The notes under the pieces are model-generated. The model was not told the DNA's origin. It saw only the letters and a list, made by a program, of their open reading frames with translations, and ran no database searches. Source: Deltaproteobacteria bacterium RBG_13_61_14 (GTDB lineage: Bacteria > RBG-13-61-14). Taken from it: DNA of 7,006 nucleotides. Where the stretch lies: the NCBI GenBank assembly GCA_001797815.1, contig MGQK01000117.1:6271-13276 (forward strand), in the 5' to 3' direction. How positions within the stretch are numbered: the stretch's first letter is position 1; every line of letters begins with the position of its first letter. A program made the position numbers and the translations under genes. Of this stretch, positions 994-7,006 are shown piece by piece.

Positions 994-3873
994 ATGGAGA
1001 TGACCACAAAGCAGCGGATGGCGGGCGCGATCGTGATCGGGGCCATGCTCTTGGCGATGGCTTCCGGGGCCGGGGCCTGGGGCAAGGGCGGCTGGACCAG
1101 GAAGCTGAAGCCGAAAGCCAAGGCGCTAGCGCCGGCGATTTTCAGCAAGGACAAAGAAGTCAAAAGAGAGGACACGTTGATGCTGGAACTGGACAACGGC
1201 TTGCGGGTGGTGATCCGGGAGAACCACGCGGCGCCGGTGGTGGCGCTCGACGTCTGGGTCAACGTGGGCAGCGGCGATGAGACCGACGGCCAGGCCGGGC
1301 TCGCCCACGTGCACGAGCACATGCTCTTCAAGGGCACCGAGCGGCGGGCGGTGGGGGAGATCGCCCGCGAGGTGGAAGGCGCCGGGGGGGACATCAACGC
1401 TTTCACCAGTAACGACAACACGGTCTATCATATCGTCATCGCCAGCCGGTTTTTCGGGAAGGCGCTGGACATCCTGGCCGATTTCATCCAGCATTCGAGC
1501 TTTGATCCGGTGGAGCTGGCCAAGGAAGAGGAAGTGGTGATGGAGGAGTTGCGGCGGAGGGAGGACAATCCCGGCCAGAAGATTTACCGCCATTTGTTCG
1601 AGACCGCTTATAAGGTTCACCCCTACCGCCGGCCGATCATCGGCTACGAGGAGACGGTCAAGCATTTCACCCGCGACCAGATCGTGGGTTTCTACCGTCA
1701 GTGGTATGTGCCGAAGAACATGATCGTGGTGATCGTGGGCGACCTCAACGCCGAGCAAGCCCTGGCCCTGGTGAAGAAAGAGTTCGGCCCCATGCCCAAG
1801 ACGCCCGATCCGCGCGCGGGCGGGAGCGAGCGGGACGCGAAAGAGCCGCCCCAGCCGGAGTTGCGGGTGTCCATCCATCCCCAGGATATATCCGAGACCT
1901 ACCTTTATCTCGGCTTCCATACCCCGGCCTTTACCGGCCCGGACCTGGCCGAGCTGGACCTGCTCTCGGTCATCCTGGGCATGGGCGAAAGCTCGCGGCT
2001 CGTGCAGCGGGTGCGCTCGGAAAAGCAACTGGTCAACAAGATCTGGGGCTATGCCTACACGCCCCGCGATCCCGGCCTGTTTTTAGTGGGCGCCCAACTG
2101 AATACCGGCAAGGCGCCGGAGGCGCTGACCGAAGTCCTGCGGCAGATGTTCCTGGTCAAGCATCAGCCGGTGGAGTCGTGGGAGCTGGCGAAGGCCAAGT
2201 TGCAGTTGGAGGCCGATTCCGACTACTCGCGGGAGACGGTGCAGGGCCAGGCCCGCAAGCTCGGGTATTTCGCTTCGCTCACCGGCGACCCGCTCTACGA
2301 GGAGAAATACCTGGCGCGGGTGAAAGAGGTGAATTCGGAAGACCTGATGCGGGCGGCGAACAAGTATTTTATGAGCCAGAACCTCTCGGTGGTGGCGCTG
2401 GTGCCGGACAAGGACGCCAGGCTGTTCACCCCGGCCATCGCCGAGGCGGCGGTGCAGCGGGTGGACACCGAGGAGGCCGAGGGCAAGAGCGATTCCTGGG
2501 CGGAAAAAGAAACCGCGCCGCCGCCGCCGCCGGCGCCCGAGTCAATCAGCGCGTCGGCCAAAGCGGTGGAGGTCCGGGAGCCGGTGCGCTTCGAGCTTAA
2601 GAACGGCATCCGCTTGATCGTGAAAGAGCGGCACGACGTGCCCCTGGTCGCGGTGCGGGCCGCTTTTCTGGGCGGGCTCCGCTATGAGACGCCGAAGGAC
2701 AACGGGATCAACAATTTCATCGCTTACGCCATTACCGAGGGCACCTCGACCCGCACGGCCAAGGAGATCCACCAGGCGATCGAGGGCATGGCCGGCTCCA
2801 TCGCCGGCTTTTCCGGCCGCAACAGCCTGGGCGTGACCCTGGAAAGCCTGAGCCGCTACTTCGATCCCTCGCTCGAGATCCTGGCCGACGTGCTCCAGAA
2901 CCCGGCCTTTCCCCGGGACGAGCTGGACAAGGCCCGGCTGATCATCCTCTCCAACATCCGCACCCAGAAGGACCTGCCCAGCCAGGTGGCCATGAACGGC
3001 TTCCGCGCCGCGCTCTATCCGCATCATCCTTACGGCCTGAACGTGCTGGGCAGCGAGCCGGTGGTGCAGAAGCTCAGCCAAGCCGACCTGCAAAACTATT
3101 ACTACCAGCGCCTGGCCCGGCCGGAAAACCTGGTGATCGCGGTGACGGGCGACGTGGACGCCAAGGCGGTGAAGAAGCGGGTGGAAGCGCTGCTCGGCGA
3201 CTGGTTCGGCGAGCCGATGCAGCCGCCGGAGTTAACCGAAGACCCGGCGCCCGAGGAGATCCGCAAGGTGGTCGAGTGCATGGACCGGAACCAATCCAAC
3301 CTGGTGCTCGGCTTCCAGGGCGCTACCCTGCAAAGCCCGGAGCGCTATCCCCTGCTGGTGCTCAACGGCGTGCTCTCCAGCATGGGCGGACGGCTCTTCC
3401 TCGAGCTGCGCGACCAGCAAAGCCTGGCCTACTCCGTCTATGCCGCCAGCGAAGACGGGCTCGAACCCGGCTTCCTCTGGGTCTATATCGGCACCGCCCC
3501 GGACAAGGAAGAGACCGCGCTCGCCGGCATCCTCGCGGAGCTCGATCGCATCCGCACCGAGCCGGTGCCGGCGGATGAGTTGCAGCGGGCCAAAAACTCG
3601 CTGATCGGCGGCTTCGAGATTGATTTGCAGCGCAATGCCTCCCAGGCCTCGCACCTGGCCTTTGACGAGATCTACGGACTCGGCTATCGCGACTCCGAGC
3701 GCTTTGCTGAGCGCGTCCAGGCCGTGACCTCGGAAGAGGCGCTGAAAGCGGCTGAGAAATACTATCCGCTCTCGGCCTACGTGCTCTCCGTGGTCAAGCC
3801 CTGCCCGGAGGAGCAGAAAAAGGCCGCGCCGGTGAAAAAGAAACCCCACAAGAAGCCCCGCCGGAGGAAATAG
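994..3873 (+). CDS. Secreted tandem-domain M16 (pitrilysin-type) zinc metallopeptidase
   Basis: 959 codons. A signal peptide spans residues 1-28 (hydrophobic 10-24, likely cleavage after AGA at 26-28), so the protein is exported, probably to the periplasm. The first M16 half (about 62-400) has the inverted zinc motif HxxEH as HVHEH (H105, E108, H109), followed 76 residues later by E185 in VVMEEL, the expected third zinc ligand. A Pro-rich linker (P509-P513) leads to the second half (about 530-870). That half keeps the fold but has NNFIAY where HxxEH would be, so it is a non-catalytic partner half. The second half also has the RLFLELRDQQSLAYSV stretch carrying the Arg/Tyr pair typical of the family. 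The C-terminus is strongly basic (KKKPHKKPRRRK). The family degrades peptides inside a clamshell chamber; the substrate here is unknown. AAGGAG (985-990) is only 3 nt before the ATG at 994 but 9 nt before the in-frame ATG at 1000, so MTTKQRM may be the true start. The 3' end is duplicated at 6235-6304. Confidence 0.93.
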   Translation: MEMTTKQRMAGAIVIGAMLLAMASGAGAWGKGGWTRKLKPKAKALAPAIFSKDKEVKREDTLMLELDNGLRVVIRENHAAPVVALDVWVNVGSGDETDGQAGLAHVHEHMLFKGTERRAVGEIAREVEGAGGDINAFTSNDNTVYHIVIASRFFGKALDILADFIQHSSFDPVELAKEEEVVMEELRRREDNPGQKIYRHLFETAYKVHPYRRPIIGYEETVKHFTRDQIVGFYRQWYVPKNMIVVIVGDLNAEQALALVKKEFGPMPKTPDPRAGGSERDAKEPPQPELRVSIHPQDISETYLYLGFHTPAFTGPDLAELDLLSVILGMGESSRLVQRVRSEKQLVNKIWGYAYTPRDPGLFLVGAQLNTGKAPEALTEVLRQMFLVKHQPVESWELAKAKLQLEADSDYSRETVQGQARKLGYFASLTGDPLYEEKYLARVKEVNSEDLMRAANKYFMSQNLSVVALVPDKDARLFTPAIAEAAVQRVDTEEAEGKSDSWAEKETAPPPPPAPESISASAKAVEVREPVRFELKNGIRLIVKERHDVPLVAVRAAFLGGLRYETPKDNGINNFIAYAITEGTSTRTAKEIHQAIEGMAGSIAGFSGRNSLGVTLESLSRYFDPSLEILADVLQNPAFPRDELDKARLIILSNIRTQKDLPSQVAMNGFRAALYPHHPYGLNVLGSEPVVQKLSQADLQNYYYQRLARPENLVIAVTGDVDAKAVKKRVEALLGDWFGEPMQPPELTEDPAPEEIRKVVECMDRNQSNLVLGFQGATLQSPERYPLLVLNGVLSSMGGRLFLELRDQQSLAYSVYAASEDGLEPGFLWVYIGTAPDKEETALAGILAELDRIRTEPVPADELQRAKNSLIGGFEIDLQRNASQASHLAFDEIYGLGYRDSERFAERVQAVTSEEALKAAEKYYPLSAYVLSVVKPCPEEQKKAAPVKKKPHKKPRRRK

Positions 3874-3919
3874 GGCGCAAGTCATGGACGGGAAAGAGCG
3901 GGCGCGGCGGGCGATCGAG
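3804..3919. repeat. Left copy of a 116-bp diverged direct repeat flanking the insert
   Basis: This stretch holds the last 22 sense codons and stop of the M16 gene, the 10-bp gap and the first 12 codons of the next gene. It aligns without gaps to 6235-6350 (constant offset 2431) with 11 mismatches by hand count, about 90% identity. Similarity stops at the insert on the right side of this copy and on the left side of the other copy. Confidence 0.9.
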
Positions 3920-3925
3920 CTTTAA
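3884..3925 (+). pseudogene. Truncated 5' stub of the URO-D family gene
   Basis: An ATG 10 bp after the M16 stop opens a frame reading MDGKERARRAIEL and then TAA. The first 12 codons match the start of the intact gene at 6315 (MDGKERAKRAIEF). The match ends at 3919, just before the AATTAGGGACAGTCAC insert end supplies the stop. This stub marks where the downstream gene originally began. At 13 codons it is not expected to be functional, although it may still be translated by coupling to the protease gene. Confidence 0.85.
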
Positions 3926-3939
3926 TTAGGGACAGTCAC
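3924..3939 (+). repeat. Left terminal copy of AATTAGGGACAGTCAC
   Basis: The 16 bases are identical to 6213-6228. The ten-base core GGACAGTCAC also occurs inverted at 6151-6160. The copy abuts the truncated gene stub and is followed by a T-rich run (3941-3948) and a promoter. Confidence 0.85.
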
Positions 3940-3952
3940 CTATTTTTTCGAT

Positions 3953-3982
3953 TTGACATTGTCATTCCTAATGGTCTATGCT
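3953..3982 (+). promoter_or_regulatory. Strong sigma70-like promoter with a leaderless ATG, left over from the transposase
   Basis: A perfect TTGACA (3953-3958) and TATGCT (3977-3982) are separated by 18 bp. The ATG at 3989 begins only 7 nt after the -10 box, so any transcript from it would be essentially leaderless. The frame opens MAR, the usual first residues of Y1/REP-associated transposases, but after a few codons no family similarity remains. The likely reading is a transposase promoter and start codon separated from its gene body by deletion. It points toward the flavoprotein gene and could still contribute transcription to it. Confidence 0.55.
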
Positions 3983-3999
3983 CGGCTCATGGCTAGATC

Positions 4000-4190
4000 C
4001 AGCGCCTCGGCCCATCTCTCCGGCCACGACCCAAGCGGGCTTTTAGACCCCAGGGGTGTGACAGAAATAGTGATGTTCGTGTCCGCCTTTTTGGGCGACG
4101 GTGGGGGCGACCGGCCGGTCGCCCTCGCAAGAGCGCGGCCAATCGCGCTGATACGTCCGTCCCGGGAAGTCCCCATCAGCAATTTTTTCA
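4000..4190. other. Unassigned stretch between the transposase start and C-terminal relics
   Basis: No gene is recognised here on either strand. Frames open through it (for example 3953-4291 plus and 4344-3976 minus) give Arg/Pro/Gly-rich, low-complexity translations with no family resemblance and no ribosome-binding site. It contains a perfect 20-bp palindrome at 4105-4124. It is probably scrambled or replaced sequence from the middle of the old transposase gene, or an unrelated fragment. Confidence 0.4.
4105..4124. repeat. Perfect 20-bp palindrome
   Basis: GGGCGACCGG is followed directly by its reverse complement CCGGTCGCCC. There is no spacer and no T-run on either side, so it does not look like an ordinary intrinsic terminator. 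It could be a structural element of the mobile DNA or a dyad binding site. Confidence 0.6.
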
Positions 4191-4194
4191 CACA

Positions 4195-4417
4195 CCATTG
4201 TGCCCCTGGTCGCTTGACCACCGCCTGCCCGCCGCAGAGTGGACCGGCTTTCTGGAACGATCCGAGGACAAGGAAGACCCGGCCCGGATGACGAGAGAGC
4301 ATCACCCGAGGACATCCTGTGGCCGGCGGCAGCTTTATCAGCAAGCTGGAAGCCTCCTTGGGCTTCCGCCTGCGGCCGCGGCCGGTCGGAAGACCGAAAA
4401 AGGAAAAAAATCGGTGA
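4195..4417 (+). pseudogene. Decayed C-terminal relic of a Y1 (IS200/REP-associated) transposase
   Basis: Two reading frames join into the C-terminal end of a Y1-type transposase. The first has AAEWTGFLERSEDKED (frame ending near 4297), matching the family's 'W..FL' segment. After a frameshift near 4290-4300 the second reads RGHPVAGGSFISKLE, then ASLGFRLRPRPVGRPKKEK, and stops at TGA 4415-4417. This follows the family pattern of GRP-G, a SF..LE stretch, LG..LRP and a terminal GRPKK tail. Further upstream, LVA-stop-PPPA (4203-4230) may continue the relic through a stop and another shift. The catalytic HxH and Tyr regions are absent, so it cannot be active. Its polarity agrees with the promoter at 3953. 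I see the resemblance only from family knowledge, with no alignment run. Confidence 0.6.
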
Positions 4418-4551
4418 CGTTTCCCATATTGTCTATTGGGTGGTGTAAGATGGGAATTGAACTTGGCCTAGGTTATGGTTTGGAAAGAAATGTGGAAACG
4501 GAAAGAAAATTGATAACCGATATGACGCTCGCGTGCGGATGGAGGTGAAAA

Positions 4552-6141
4552 ATGACCGCGGTTGTAAACGATAAGACGCAAGTCTATCTCGTCGGAGGAG
4601 GAATCGCCGGGCTTTCCGCTGCCGTCTTTGCCATCAGGGACGCCCACATTCCAGGAAAGAATATACATATATTTGAAGTACTGGATGTTATGGGCGGAGC
4701 TTTGGATGGTGCCGGTTCGCCTGACAAATATTATGTCACCCGCGGAGACAGGAAATTTAATATCGAGGTCTTCAACTGCACCTGGGATCTTTTTTCAGCC
4801 ATTCCTTCGCTGACTGATCCGAAAAAAACAGTGAAAGATGAATTCTTTGAATATAACAAAATCCATAAGAAAAACGCCAAATCCCGATTGATCGACAAAA
4901 ACCGGAATAAAGATGATGTGTCCACGATGGGCCTTAGTTGGGGAGACAGGAGAAAAATGCTTTCACTCATAGTCATTCCCGAAAGTAGGATCGAAAACCG
5001 CCGGATTGACTCATGGTTTGATCCTTCATTTTTTGAGACCAATTTCTGGAAAGTATTTTCTTCGATGTTTGCGATTGAGTACTGGAATGACCTGGTAGAA
5101 ATGAAGCGATATGTGCGTAGATTTATGCATGATTTTTATAGAATGGTTCAGGGCGGCGGAGAGGTGGTTACACCGTACCATAATTATGATTCCATAATTC
5201 GGCCTATTACAAAATGGCTGGGACAGCAAGGCGTCAACTTTGAAATGGGGTGTAAGGTCACTGACCTGGATTTCAATCCTTCCCAAGATGAATTGACCGT
5301 TGAACGAATTCACTACCTCCGCCATGGAGAAGAGAAAGAAGTAGTCGTGAGCAAGAGCGACTATGTATTCGTTACCAACGGATCAATGACTGCGGATTCC
5401 AGACGCGGGTCCATGACCGACAGCCCCCCCCTTGAAACAAGGAAATTGGACGGCTCTTGGACCCTCTGGGAAAATATTGCGAAAAAGCGGCCGGGTTTGG
5501 GAAACCCATCCGTTTTTAATAGTCATATAGATGAATCAAAATGGATTACGTTTTCTGTTACCGCTAAGGATCCGGCTTTTCTAAAATTGTATGAACAGTT
5601 CACCGGCAATAAACCGGGGCAGGCGGATATGGTTACGTTTAAGGACTCAAACTGGCATATGTCCATACTCGTGCCGCATCAACCGCACTTTCTCAATCAG
5701 CCTAAGGATGTATTTCTGTGGGGGGGATGCGGCTTAGTCCCAGACAAGGAGGGCGACTATGTCAAGATAGAGATGTCCGAATGCAGCGGTAAGGACATAT
5801 TGACCGAAGTGTGCCACCACTTCGGGTTCGTTAAAGAGCTGCCGCACATCCTCGAGACCTCCACCTGTATTCCGAGCATGATGCCATATGAAATGAGCCA
5901 CTTTTTGCCGAGAAAAAAGAGTGACCGGCCTCTGGTGGTGCCGAAAGGATCAACCAATCTGGCGTTTATGGGACAGTTCACTGAGAGCGGCGAGTGCGTT
6001 ATGCTAGTGGAATCCTCGGTCCGATGCGGGAAAATGGCCGTGTATTCGCTTCTCGATTTGGACAAAAAAGTTCCTCCGGTTTACACGGGAGTCTATAATC
6101 CCGCCGTATGGTTAAGGACTATTGTCCAAGTGCTCAAATAG
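4552..6141 (+). CDS. Divergent oleate hydratase (MCRA) family FAD protein
   Basis: 529 codons, preceded by GGAGGTGA (4541-4548) at good spacing. Residues 12-29 carry the Rossmann FAD motif (VYLVGGGIAGLSAAVF), followed by IHIFE and GGALDG. Family blocks continue with NCTWDLFSAIPSL (75-87), MKRY with Tyr187, NYDSIIRPI (211-219), FVTNGS (273-278), GSWTLWENIA (301-310), DSNWHMS (365-371) and PRKKSDRPLVVPKG with NLAFMGQF (453-476). Oleate hydratases add water to the cis-9 double bond of unsaturated fatty acids, using FAD as a structural and activating cofactor. Tyr187 appears to match the usual proton-donor Tyr. However, the family's RGGRE catalytic segment reads RGDRK (64-68), with Lys68 where the catalytic Glu is expected; Glu72 is nearby. 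Double-bond hydration is therefore uncertain. There is no signal peptide. The lower G+C than both flanks suggests transfer. Family membership is very likely; the substrate is unknown. Confidence 0.88.
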   Translation: MTAVVNDKTQVYLVGGGIAGLSAAVFAIRDAHIPGKNIHIFEVLDVMGGALDGAGSPDKYYVTRGDRKFNIEVFNCTWDLFSAIPSLTDPKKTVKDEFFEYNKIHKKNAKSRLIDKNRNKDDVSTMGLSWGDRRKMLSLIVIPESRIENRRIDSWFDPSFFETNFWKVFSSMFAIEYWNDLVEMKRYVRRFMHDFYRMVQGGGEVVTPYHNYDSIIRPITKWLGQQGVNFEMGCKVTDLDFNPSQDELTVERIHYLRHGEEKEVVVSKSDYVFVTNGSMTADSRRGSMTDSPPLETRKLDGSWTLWENIAKKRPGLGNPSVFNSHIDESKWITFSVTAKDPAFLKLYEQFTGNKPGQADMVTFKDSNWHMSILVPHQPHFLNQPKDVFLWGGCGLVPDKEGDYVKIEMSECSGKDILTEVCHHFGFVKELPHILETSTCIPSMMPYEMSHFLPRKKSDRPLVVPKGSTNLAFMGQFTESGECVMLVESSVRCGKMAVYSLLDLDKKVPPVYTGVYNPAVWLRTIVQVLK

Positions 6142-6150
6142 ATTCAGGGC

Positions 6151-6228
6151 GTGACTGTCCATCAAACCCCATTCTTCCGGGGTGCGAGAACCGTCGCATC
6201 CATAGAGATAAAAATTAGGGACAGTCAC
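6151..6228. repeat. REP-like nested palindrome at the right end of the insert, possible terminator
   Basis: GTGACTGTCC (6151-6160) pairs with GGACAGTCAC (6219-6228) to close a 78-nt structure. Inside are two small hairpins: CCCC/GGGG (6167-6170, 6179-6182) and TGCGA/TCGCA (6183-6187, 6194-6198). The arrangement of outer stem plus inner stems resembles REP/BIME-type structures used by Y1 transposases. It begins 9 bp after the oleate-hydratase-family stop and could also end that transcript, though it has no T-run. It includes the right copy of AATTAGGGACAGTCAC (6213-6228). Confidence 0.6.
6213..6228 (+). repeat. Right terminal copy of AATTAGGGACAGTCAC
   Basis: The 16 bases are identical to, and in the same orientation as, 3924-3939. 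Host-derived sequence resumes 6 bp later at 6235 (GAATTT lies between). This copy is also the right arm of the surrounding palindrome. Confidence 0.85.
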
Positions 6229-6234
6229 GAATTT

Positions 6235-6304
6235 CCCGGAGGAGCAGAAAAAGGCCGCGCCGGTGAAAAGGAAACCTCCGAAGAAACCCCGCCGGAGGAA
6301 ATAG
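6235..6304 (+). pseudogene. Orphan copy of the M16 protease 3' end
   Basis: The frame ends PEEQKKAAPVKRKPPKKP plus RRRK and TAG at 6302-6304, matching the C-terminus of the intact protease (which has KKKPHKKP). It has no start of its own. It preserves the sequence just upstream of the URO-D gene, including GGAGG at 6294-6298 and AGGG at 6303-6306, so it may still serve as that gene's translation initiation region. Confidence 0.85.
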
Positions 6305-6350
6305 GGCGCAACTCATGGACGGGAAAGAGCGGGCCAAACGCGCGATCGAG
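6235..6350. repeat. Right copy of the 116-bp diverged direct repeat
   Basis: This is the partner of 3804-3919, gap-free with 11 mismatches. It restores the upstream context and first codons of the URO-D family gene. Most differences conserve the encoded peptides: K/R, H/P and silent changes in the protease tail, and R/K plus a silent change in the next gene. Confidence 0.9.
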
Positions 6351-7006
6351 TTCACCGGACCGGACCAGGTGCCCCAATCCGCCCGCGATTTCTTCCCTCT
6401 CTTCCACCTGCCCCCATCGAGCTGGCAGCCGGCCGAGCCTTATTATCCCTACGTGCATCCGCTCATTATCAAGGCCGGGCTTTGGAAACCCGAGCGAATG
6501 CTCGAGCCGGGCTGGCTGGAGAAAAAGCGCGAGGCCGTGGATGAATGGGGCTGTATCTGGATCACCTCGGGGATATCTTCGCTGGGCGAGATCAAGCACG
6601 GCGCGCTGCAAGACGGCTGGGAGGGTCTGGACGACCTCCGCGTCCCGGACTTTTCAGACTGGGGCCGGTTCCAGCTCTTCGCCCGCCTGGGCTCAACCCT
6701 GGGTCAGGGCCGCTACCAGCTGGGCGTCGCCGATAACTCCCTGTGGGAGCGATACCGCTTCCTGCGCGGCTTTGACAACGCGCTCAGCGACCTGATCCTG
6801 CGCCCGAGGGAAGTGTGCCGCTTGCTCGACCGGCTCACCGAGGCCTTCCTGCTGATCGTGGACCAGTTCCAGAAAGCCGGCGCCGACGGCTTCATGCTGG
6901 TGGACGACTGGGGCACCCAGCAGTCGAGCTTCATCTCGCCCCGCCACTTCGCGGAATTTTTCCAGCCCTGTTACCGGCAAATCGTGGACCGCTGCCACCG
7001 GCTCGG
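6315..7006 (+). CDS. URO-D (uroporphyrinogen decarboxylase/methyltransferase) family protein, N-terminal part, cut by window edge
   Basis: The frame is open from the ATG at 6315 to the window edge (230 complete codons). Family features include the opening DGKERAKRAIEF helix, DEWGCIW (76-82), RFLRGFDN (148-155) and, most telling, DDWGTQ (197-202) followed by FISPRHFAEFFQPCYR, which is the barrel strand and helix seen in URO-D superfamily proteins. The superfamily includes heme-pathway UroD and corrinoid-dependent methyltransferases. This divergent type is usually annotated only as 'URO-D domain', so I assign no reaction; metal-binding residues would lie beyond the window. No corrinoid protein is visible nearby. 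The start matches the stub at 3884. The nearest Shine-Dalgarno-like AGGG is 8 nt upstream, with GGAGG 16 nt upstream, both within the duplicated protease tail. Before the insertion it was presumably coupled to the protease gene; now it lies behind a possible terminator. Confidence 0.82.
   Translation, partial: MDGKERAKRAIEFTGPDQVPQSARDFFPLFHLPPSSWQPAEPYYPYVHPLIIKAGLWKPERMLEPGWLEKKREAVDEWGCIWITSGISSLGEIKHGALQDGWEGLDDLRVPDFSDWGRFQLFARLGSTLGQGRYQLGVADNSLWERYRFLRGFDNALSDLILRPREVCRLLDRLTEAFLLIVDQFQKAGADGFMLVDDWGTQQSSFISPRHFAEFFQPCYRQIVDRCHRL

Follow-up and report, generated by a model that had tools for sequence, protein, structure and literature searches.

We analysed a 7,006-nucleotide stretch of DNA from Deltaproteobacteria bacterium RBG_13_61_14 (hereafter the window), which encodes an M16 peptidase and, downstream, a URO-D-like protein. 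Two copies of a 116-bp direct repeat lie at the junction of the two genes, and the insert between the copies spans 2.3 kb and carries one recognisable gene, an intact oleate hydratase gene. The features, in window coordinates, are as follows.

994–3873, + strand: M16 peptidase gene, 959 aa, complete, its 3′ end inside the left repeat copy (PF00675 and PF05193, each twice; open reading frame list)
3804–3919, + strand: left copy of the 116-bp repeat, comprising the M16 tail, the spacer and the first 12 URO-D codons (11 mismatches to the right copy)
3804–3838 (6235–6269 in the right copy), + strand: 35-bp identical block, the putative crossover site (alignment; chance of a clean 35 bp, 0.016)
3884–3925, + strand: URO-D 5′ remnant, 13 codons (MDGKERARRAIEL) and then a TAA from the insert edge (read directly from the sequence)
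3924–3945, + strand: REP-like motif at the left end of the insert (repeat search; 22–26 bp matches elsewhere in the genome)
3946–4538, no strand assigned: 593-bp insert segment without a recognisable gene (no Pfam match; matches to dispersed motifs only)
4539–6177, + strand: DNA similarity (87%) to contig C302 of genome G001, covering the gene and its immediate edges (DNA comparison)
4552–6141, + strand: predicted oleate hydratase gene, 529 aa, intact (PF06100, E 7e-181; NF010584; PDB 4ia5, E 2e-113; GC3 0.534)
6213–6234, + strand: REP-like motif at the right end of the insert, 91% identical to the left motif and in the same orientation
6235–6350, + strand: right copy of the 116-bp repeat (alignment with the left copy)
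6236–6304, + strand: M16 3′ remnant (last codons and stop) upstream of URO-D (alignment; tblastn-type match to M16 residues 921–959)
6315–7004, + strand: URO-D-like gene, running past the window end (PF01208, E 7e-11; 57% to the orthologues in genomes G001 and G002)

Pairwise alignment of positions 3804–3919 with 6235–6350 gave a gap-free match with 11 mismatches (90.5% identity), confirming the hand count of the initial annotation. Its description of a repeat that runs across the protease C-terminus, the gene junction and the start of the next gene was equally accurate, each copy consisting of the last 23 codons and stop codon of the M16 gene, a 10-base spacer and the first 12 codons of the URO-D gene. 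The pair is the longest direct repeat of the window (listed as 127 nt at 87% by the repeat search). Sequence searches of the whole genome returned both copies (E 1e-39) and no third one, which excludes chance as the source of the repeat. The left copy serves the M16 gene and the right copy the URO-D gene, and by this arrangement both neighbours are, as had been proposed, complete up to the window end.

The differences between the copies are not scattered evenly. Some cause amino-acid replacements (K/R, H/P and R/K), others are silent and one lies in the spacer; by codon position, the ten coding differences comprise six third, three second and one first position. An earlier characterisation of the substitutions as mainly silent or conservative is fair as a description and statistically weak, since the lean towards third positions has a binomial P of about 0.08 by our own calculation and is not significant on its own. 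The differences are clustered, four adjacent pairs being among them (P 0.007), and the first 35 bp of the repeat have none (P 0.016); nowhere else do the copies agree exactly over so long a stretch. Five differences fall inside 7 bp of the URO-D remnant part, among them a whole-codon AAA/CGG change, and the right copy has a lysine that is conserved in URO-D orthologues, whereas the left remnant has another residue there. The further claim that the copies are alleles or paralogues that evolved under selection rests on the ten coding differences and is weakened by the fact that one half of each copy is a remnant, free to drift.

The gene in the insert, which the initial annotation did not identify, belongs by its sequence matches to the oleate hydratase family and is predicted to have hydration activity: it has a full-length match to the profile NF010584 (604.2 bits versus a cut-off of 567) and matches the solved enzymes PDB 4ia5 and 4uir. 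Its GC3 is 0.534 versus 0.871 and 0.843 for the neighbouring genes. Among the relatives found, the closest comes from a lake-sediment MAG, G001, which belongs to the same order but to another family; identity is 88% for the protein and 87% for the DNA. The M16 and URO-D orthologues of G001, by contrast, are only 43–57% identical to those of the window (M16 45%, URO-D 57%). Judged by its composition and by this relative, the gene is foreign to the genome. No relatives of the insert cargo were found among viral contigs. In both same-order genomes, G001 and G002, M16 and URO-D are on different contigs with other neighbours; the M16/URO-D junction that would represent an empty site was absent from the relatives found.

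The 593 bp upstream of the oleate hydratase gene contain a dispersed palindrome, GGGCGACCGGCCGGTCGCCC, near 4105–4124. An Rfam search gave a single sub-threshold match (25 bits versus a cut-off of 81). A decayed RAYT gene in this segment was rejected, as the segment resembles the 19 RAYT loci of the genome at the DNA level only in dispersed motifs. There is no transposase gene in the insert, where oleate hydratase is the sole recognised gene, and there are no terminal inverted repeats at its ends, where the motifs are direct. With neither of these features and with 116-bp flanks at 90.5% identity, we rejected a conventional transposon or insertion sequence, in agreement with the earlier view that the repeat is far too long for a target duplication left by transposition.

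Both ends of the insert carry the REP-like motif AATTAGGGACAGTCAC in direct orientation, adjoining the repeat copies; this, too, is absent from the initial annotation. The motif, which can fold into a short hairpin, has eight sites genome-wide at ≤1 mismatch, two of them in the window (reversed control, 0). The sequence GTGACTGTCC at 6151 was considered as an inverted partner of the motif and is probably a chance resemblance, since the stretch aligns downstream of the G001 gene. The genome has 19 RAYT (Y1_Tnp) transposase genes, some of them flanked by other REP-type motifs. The insert motif was not found within 1.5 kb of any of the 19, and no GTAG-type tetranucleotide precedes the hairpin at the listed motif sites. 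On contig C67, an alpha/beta hydrolase gene lies between two direct copies of the same motif (L052:4368–4388 and 6040–6060). The likeness to the known REP/REPIN and RAYT systems (PMC3116915, PMC8266576) consists in a short hairpin motif at several intergenic places and in the many RAYT genes; here, however, no RAYT gene is near the motif, no GTAG tag precedes the hairpin, and what the motif bounds is a block of 2.3 kb that holds a foreign gene and is flanked by a long duplication.

We surveyed 2.04 of the 4.74 Mb of the genome (43%) for repeats of 50–450 bp whose two copies are separated by 150–6000 bp and do not share a reading frame, and obtained 30 direct and 8 inverted pairs. Dispersed repeats, tRNA genes and tandem duplicates account for some of these. 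Several are fragments of genes that have diverged with codon-respecting differences, also in direct orientation; by codon position the differences are, for example, 4/4/12 at L149, 3/2/7 and 1/3/8 at L173, and 2/1/4 at L143. The tandem duplicates flgM-csrA are 91% identical over 245 bp, with a REP doublet between them. On C75 (L053), two genes are enclosed by a 122-bp repeat, which was rejected as a second case like that of the window because a third copy on C79 marks it as dispersed. Beside the C67 cassette lies a 98-bp piece of a C76 gene for a homocysteine methyltransferase-like protein (97/98 identical), adjoining a REP-like motif, and on C71 a 121-bp permease fragment (99%) lies beside a REP-like motif. 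Gene fragments were found beside REP-like motifs at 8 of 155 sites, compared with 10 of 600 random noncoding sites (Fisher P 0.018), a count that includes the window twice, one reciprocal pair twice and one case found via an added partner. With the non-independent cases dropped, P is 0.06–0.2, and we regard the enrichment as a lead, not a finding. It is conceivable, if very doubtful, that REP-like hairpins in this lineage bound single-gene cassettes that pick up about 100–120 bp of chromosomal coding sequence and that the captured stretch steers the cassette by homology to its source site, with the window, C67 and C71 as three cases. Were this true, REP elements would have a role in gene capture; the evidence for it is thin.

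The account of the locus that we tentatively favour is insertion-duplication, in which DNA imported from a diverged relative would have been added by one crossover within the 35 bp that both copies share unchanged. On the donor molecule, the oleate hydratase gene would have lain between two REP-like motifs, and the molecule would also have included about 116 bp homologous to the M16/URO-D junction. One crossover, most simply with a circular donor and within the 35-bp block at the M16 end, would have joined it to the chromosome; the present identity of the block may differ from that at the time of the event. The left copy would then be resident up to the block and donor-derived after it, and the right copy the reverse; M16 would regain a complete, donor-type tail, and URO-D would retain its own start. 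The copies would differ because the donor and resident alleles had already diverged. Several observations support such an event: a foreign gene is flanked by a direct duplication of its target, the identical block lies at the repeat end, the differences are clustered with 6/10 at third positions, the neighbours are complete, and diverged, codon-respecting direct gene fragments occur elsewhere in the genome. The gene content is also in line with it: ComEC is encoded, which is compatible with DNA uptake although 10 of 14 control genomes have it too, and no Ku gene was found, so that classical end joining is not obviously available. The initial annotation had suggested homologous import of an insert-bearing segment, which comes close to this account and fits the foreign character of the gene. 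The layout of the locus, the foreign nature of its gene, the identical block and the motif at either end are observed directly, and the donor, its circular form, the position of the crossover and the reason why REP-like motifs stand at the ends are what we infer.

Some points weigh against insertion-duplication. The hypothetical donor would need a 116-bp stretch between two REP-like motifs, which a crossover alone does not explain; the loss of the lysine in the left remnant is explained equally by drift; and 116 bp at 90% identity are a poor RecA substrate apart from the identical block.

The short overlap and the completeness of both genes would follow just as naturally if staggered breaks 116 bp apart had been filled in while the REP-bounded block inserted, perhaps with RAYT (Y1) aid. 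The copies would have been identical at first and have come to differ since, through drift of their unused halves or through subsequent recombination of one side with other strains. The direct REP-like motifs at both ends and the 19 RAYT genes fit a long target duplication of this kind, as does the conserved URO-D lysine, kept in the right copy and lost in the left remnant. However, five differences within 7 bp, the AAA/CGG codon change included, are unlike independent drift, the motif is remote (>1.5 kb) from every RAYT gene, and target duplications are not known from Y1/IS200-type enzymes. We consider this course of events unlikely. The codon-respecting differences, on the other hand, would be accounted for by a former tandem, M16a-URODa-M16b-URODb, that diverged while both units worked and then lost URODa and M16b with the REP-bounded block in place, and the flgM-csrA duplicates, with similar divergence and a REP doublet between them, show such a tandem in the same genome. 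Yet the two deletion ends would have to leave about 110 bp of nearly 4 kb, for which we estimate a chance of roughly 0.002 with uniform ends over both lost genes, and no second M16 copy exists in the genome apart from the 3′ remnant. The collapse of a duplicated M16/URO-D locus, which had also been proposed earlier, thus appears less likely than import, and we hold it to be rather improbable.

The arrangement might also exist in no cell, two strains or two unlinked places having been joined in metagenome assembly. In favour of this, the assembly is a draft in 132 contigs, the 2.04 Mb that we sampled contain 323 N runs, and the REP-like 22–26-mers recur elsewhere in the genome. The window, however, is one gap-free piece between the N runs at C117:6239–6270 and 13277–13287, with none inside; similar sequence on both sides, as an unmerged overlap would leave, was present at only 8 of the 294 gaps tested; and the longest exact match between the copies is only 35 bp, shorter than the usual final assembly k-mers. 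Together these observations exclude a scaffolding error inside the window and make a k-mer chimera unlikely, and we give an assembly artefact of any kind very little credence.

Insertion-duplication by a single crossover has experimental parallels. When DNA with homology at one end entered E. coli, single crossovers with duplications of 109–950 bp were the main outcome (PMC3240628), found beside homology-facilitated illegitimate recombination (HFIR). The locus described here resembles those products in that foreign DNA is flanked by a direct duplication of a short homologous target, whose 116 bp fall within that range, and it differs in that the copies are 9.5% apart, the event would be natural and old, and REP-like motifs stand at both ends. 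With HFIR in the strict sense it would share the joining of foreign DNA to a homologous piece of donor DNA. In HFIR, however, the deletion is usually about the size of the insertion (PMC3240628), whereas here the flanks are duplicated and no loss is seen. The cargo is of a well-known family as well, the oleate hydratases (myosin-cross-reactive antigen family), to which it is tied by full-length matches to solved enzymes and, above the equivalog cut-off, to the NCBIfam profile; only its foreign composition and its setting are unusual.

Collectively, the parts of the locus are of known kinds and their combination is uncommon, and the best reading of it is a natural scar of gene import. If insertion-duplication is the correct account, the window would preserve the natural trace of an event known mainly from laboratory work, in which a foreign gene was added between two genes with neither harmed and a donor allele was left beside the resident one; it would also caution against taking long diverged repeats that flank an insert for target duplications.

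In the source genome of the window (G000) there are 19 Y1/RAYT transposase genes. Its REP-type motifs are of several distinct kinds, namely GGGGACACCATACTTAATTC, GGGGTCAGAGCTTCAC and TAGGGACAGGCCCCGGTATT in addition to the window's own. Elsewhere in this genome, direct copies of the window's REP-like motif lie on both sides of an alpha/beta-hydrolase gene on contig C67 (stretch L052, G000:C67:31000-43000, 4368-6173). The second motif copy at this locus is adjoined by a 98-bp gene fragment, which agrees at 97 of 98 bases with the interior of a homocysteine methyltransferase-like gene located on contig C76.

Gene fragments were also observed at other loci of G000. On contig C71, an internal 121-bp fragment of an ABC permease gene (L122, G000:C71:55001-66928, 4158-4278) is 99% identical to that gene, which is 0.9 kb distant; the fragment is not within any intact gene, and a GGGGTCAG motif is located 10 bp from it. 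Contig C54 carries a complete ABC-F ATPase gene and, at a distance of 1.9 kb, a diverged fragment of its 3′ part (L173, G000:C54, 2125-4334), the two being separated by an opposite-strand ABC-F gene.

Two further loci carry repeated sequence. A flgM-csrA-like gene pair on contig C4 is completely duplicated in tandem (L131, G000:C4:1-20000, 12728-14039), with the copies 91% identical over 245 bp and a REP doublet in between. On contig C75, a 122-bp dispersed repeat occurs on either side of two small putative minus-strand genes (L053, G000:C75:1-8000, 2265-3093) that appear toxin-antitoxin-like by eye only; C79 has a third copy of this repeat.

On contig C16, a 753-aa gene has a complete URO-D-like gene on one side and, on the other, an in-frame, diverged 5′ fragment of a URO-D-like gene (92 bp at 92%; L143, G000:C16:30001-50000, 15098-17530). 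This arrangement is similar to that of the window, although the REP-like motif is absent from it.

In the lake-sediment MAG G001, the relative of the window's oleate hydratase gene has an adjacent opposite-strand 294-aa gene (L079, G001:C302, 4832-5716), whose product, judged by eye, looks like an acetoacetate decarboxylase-type protein.
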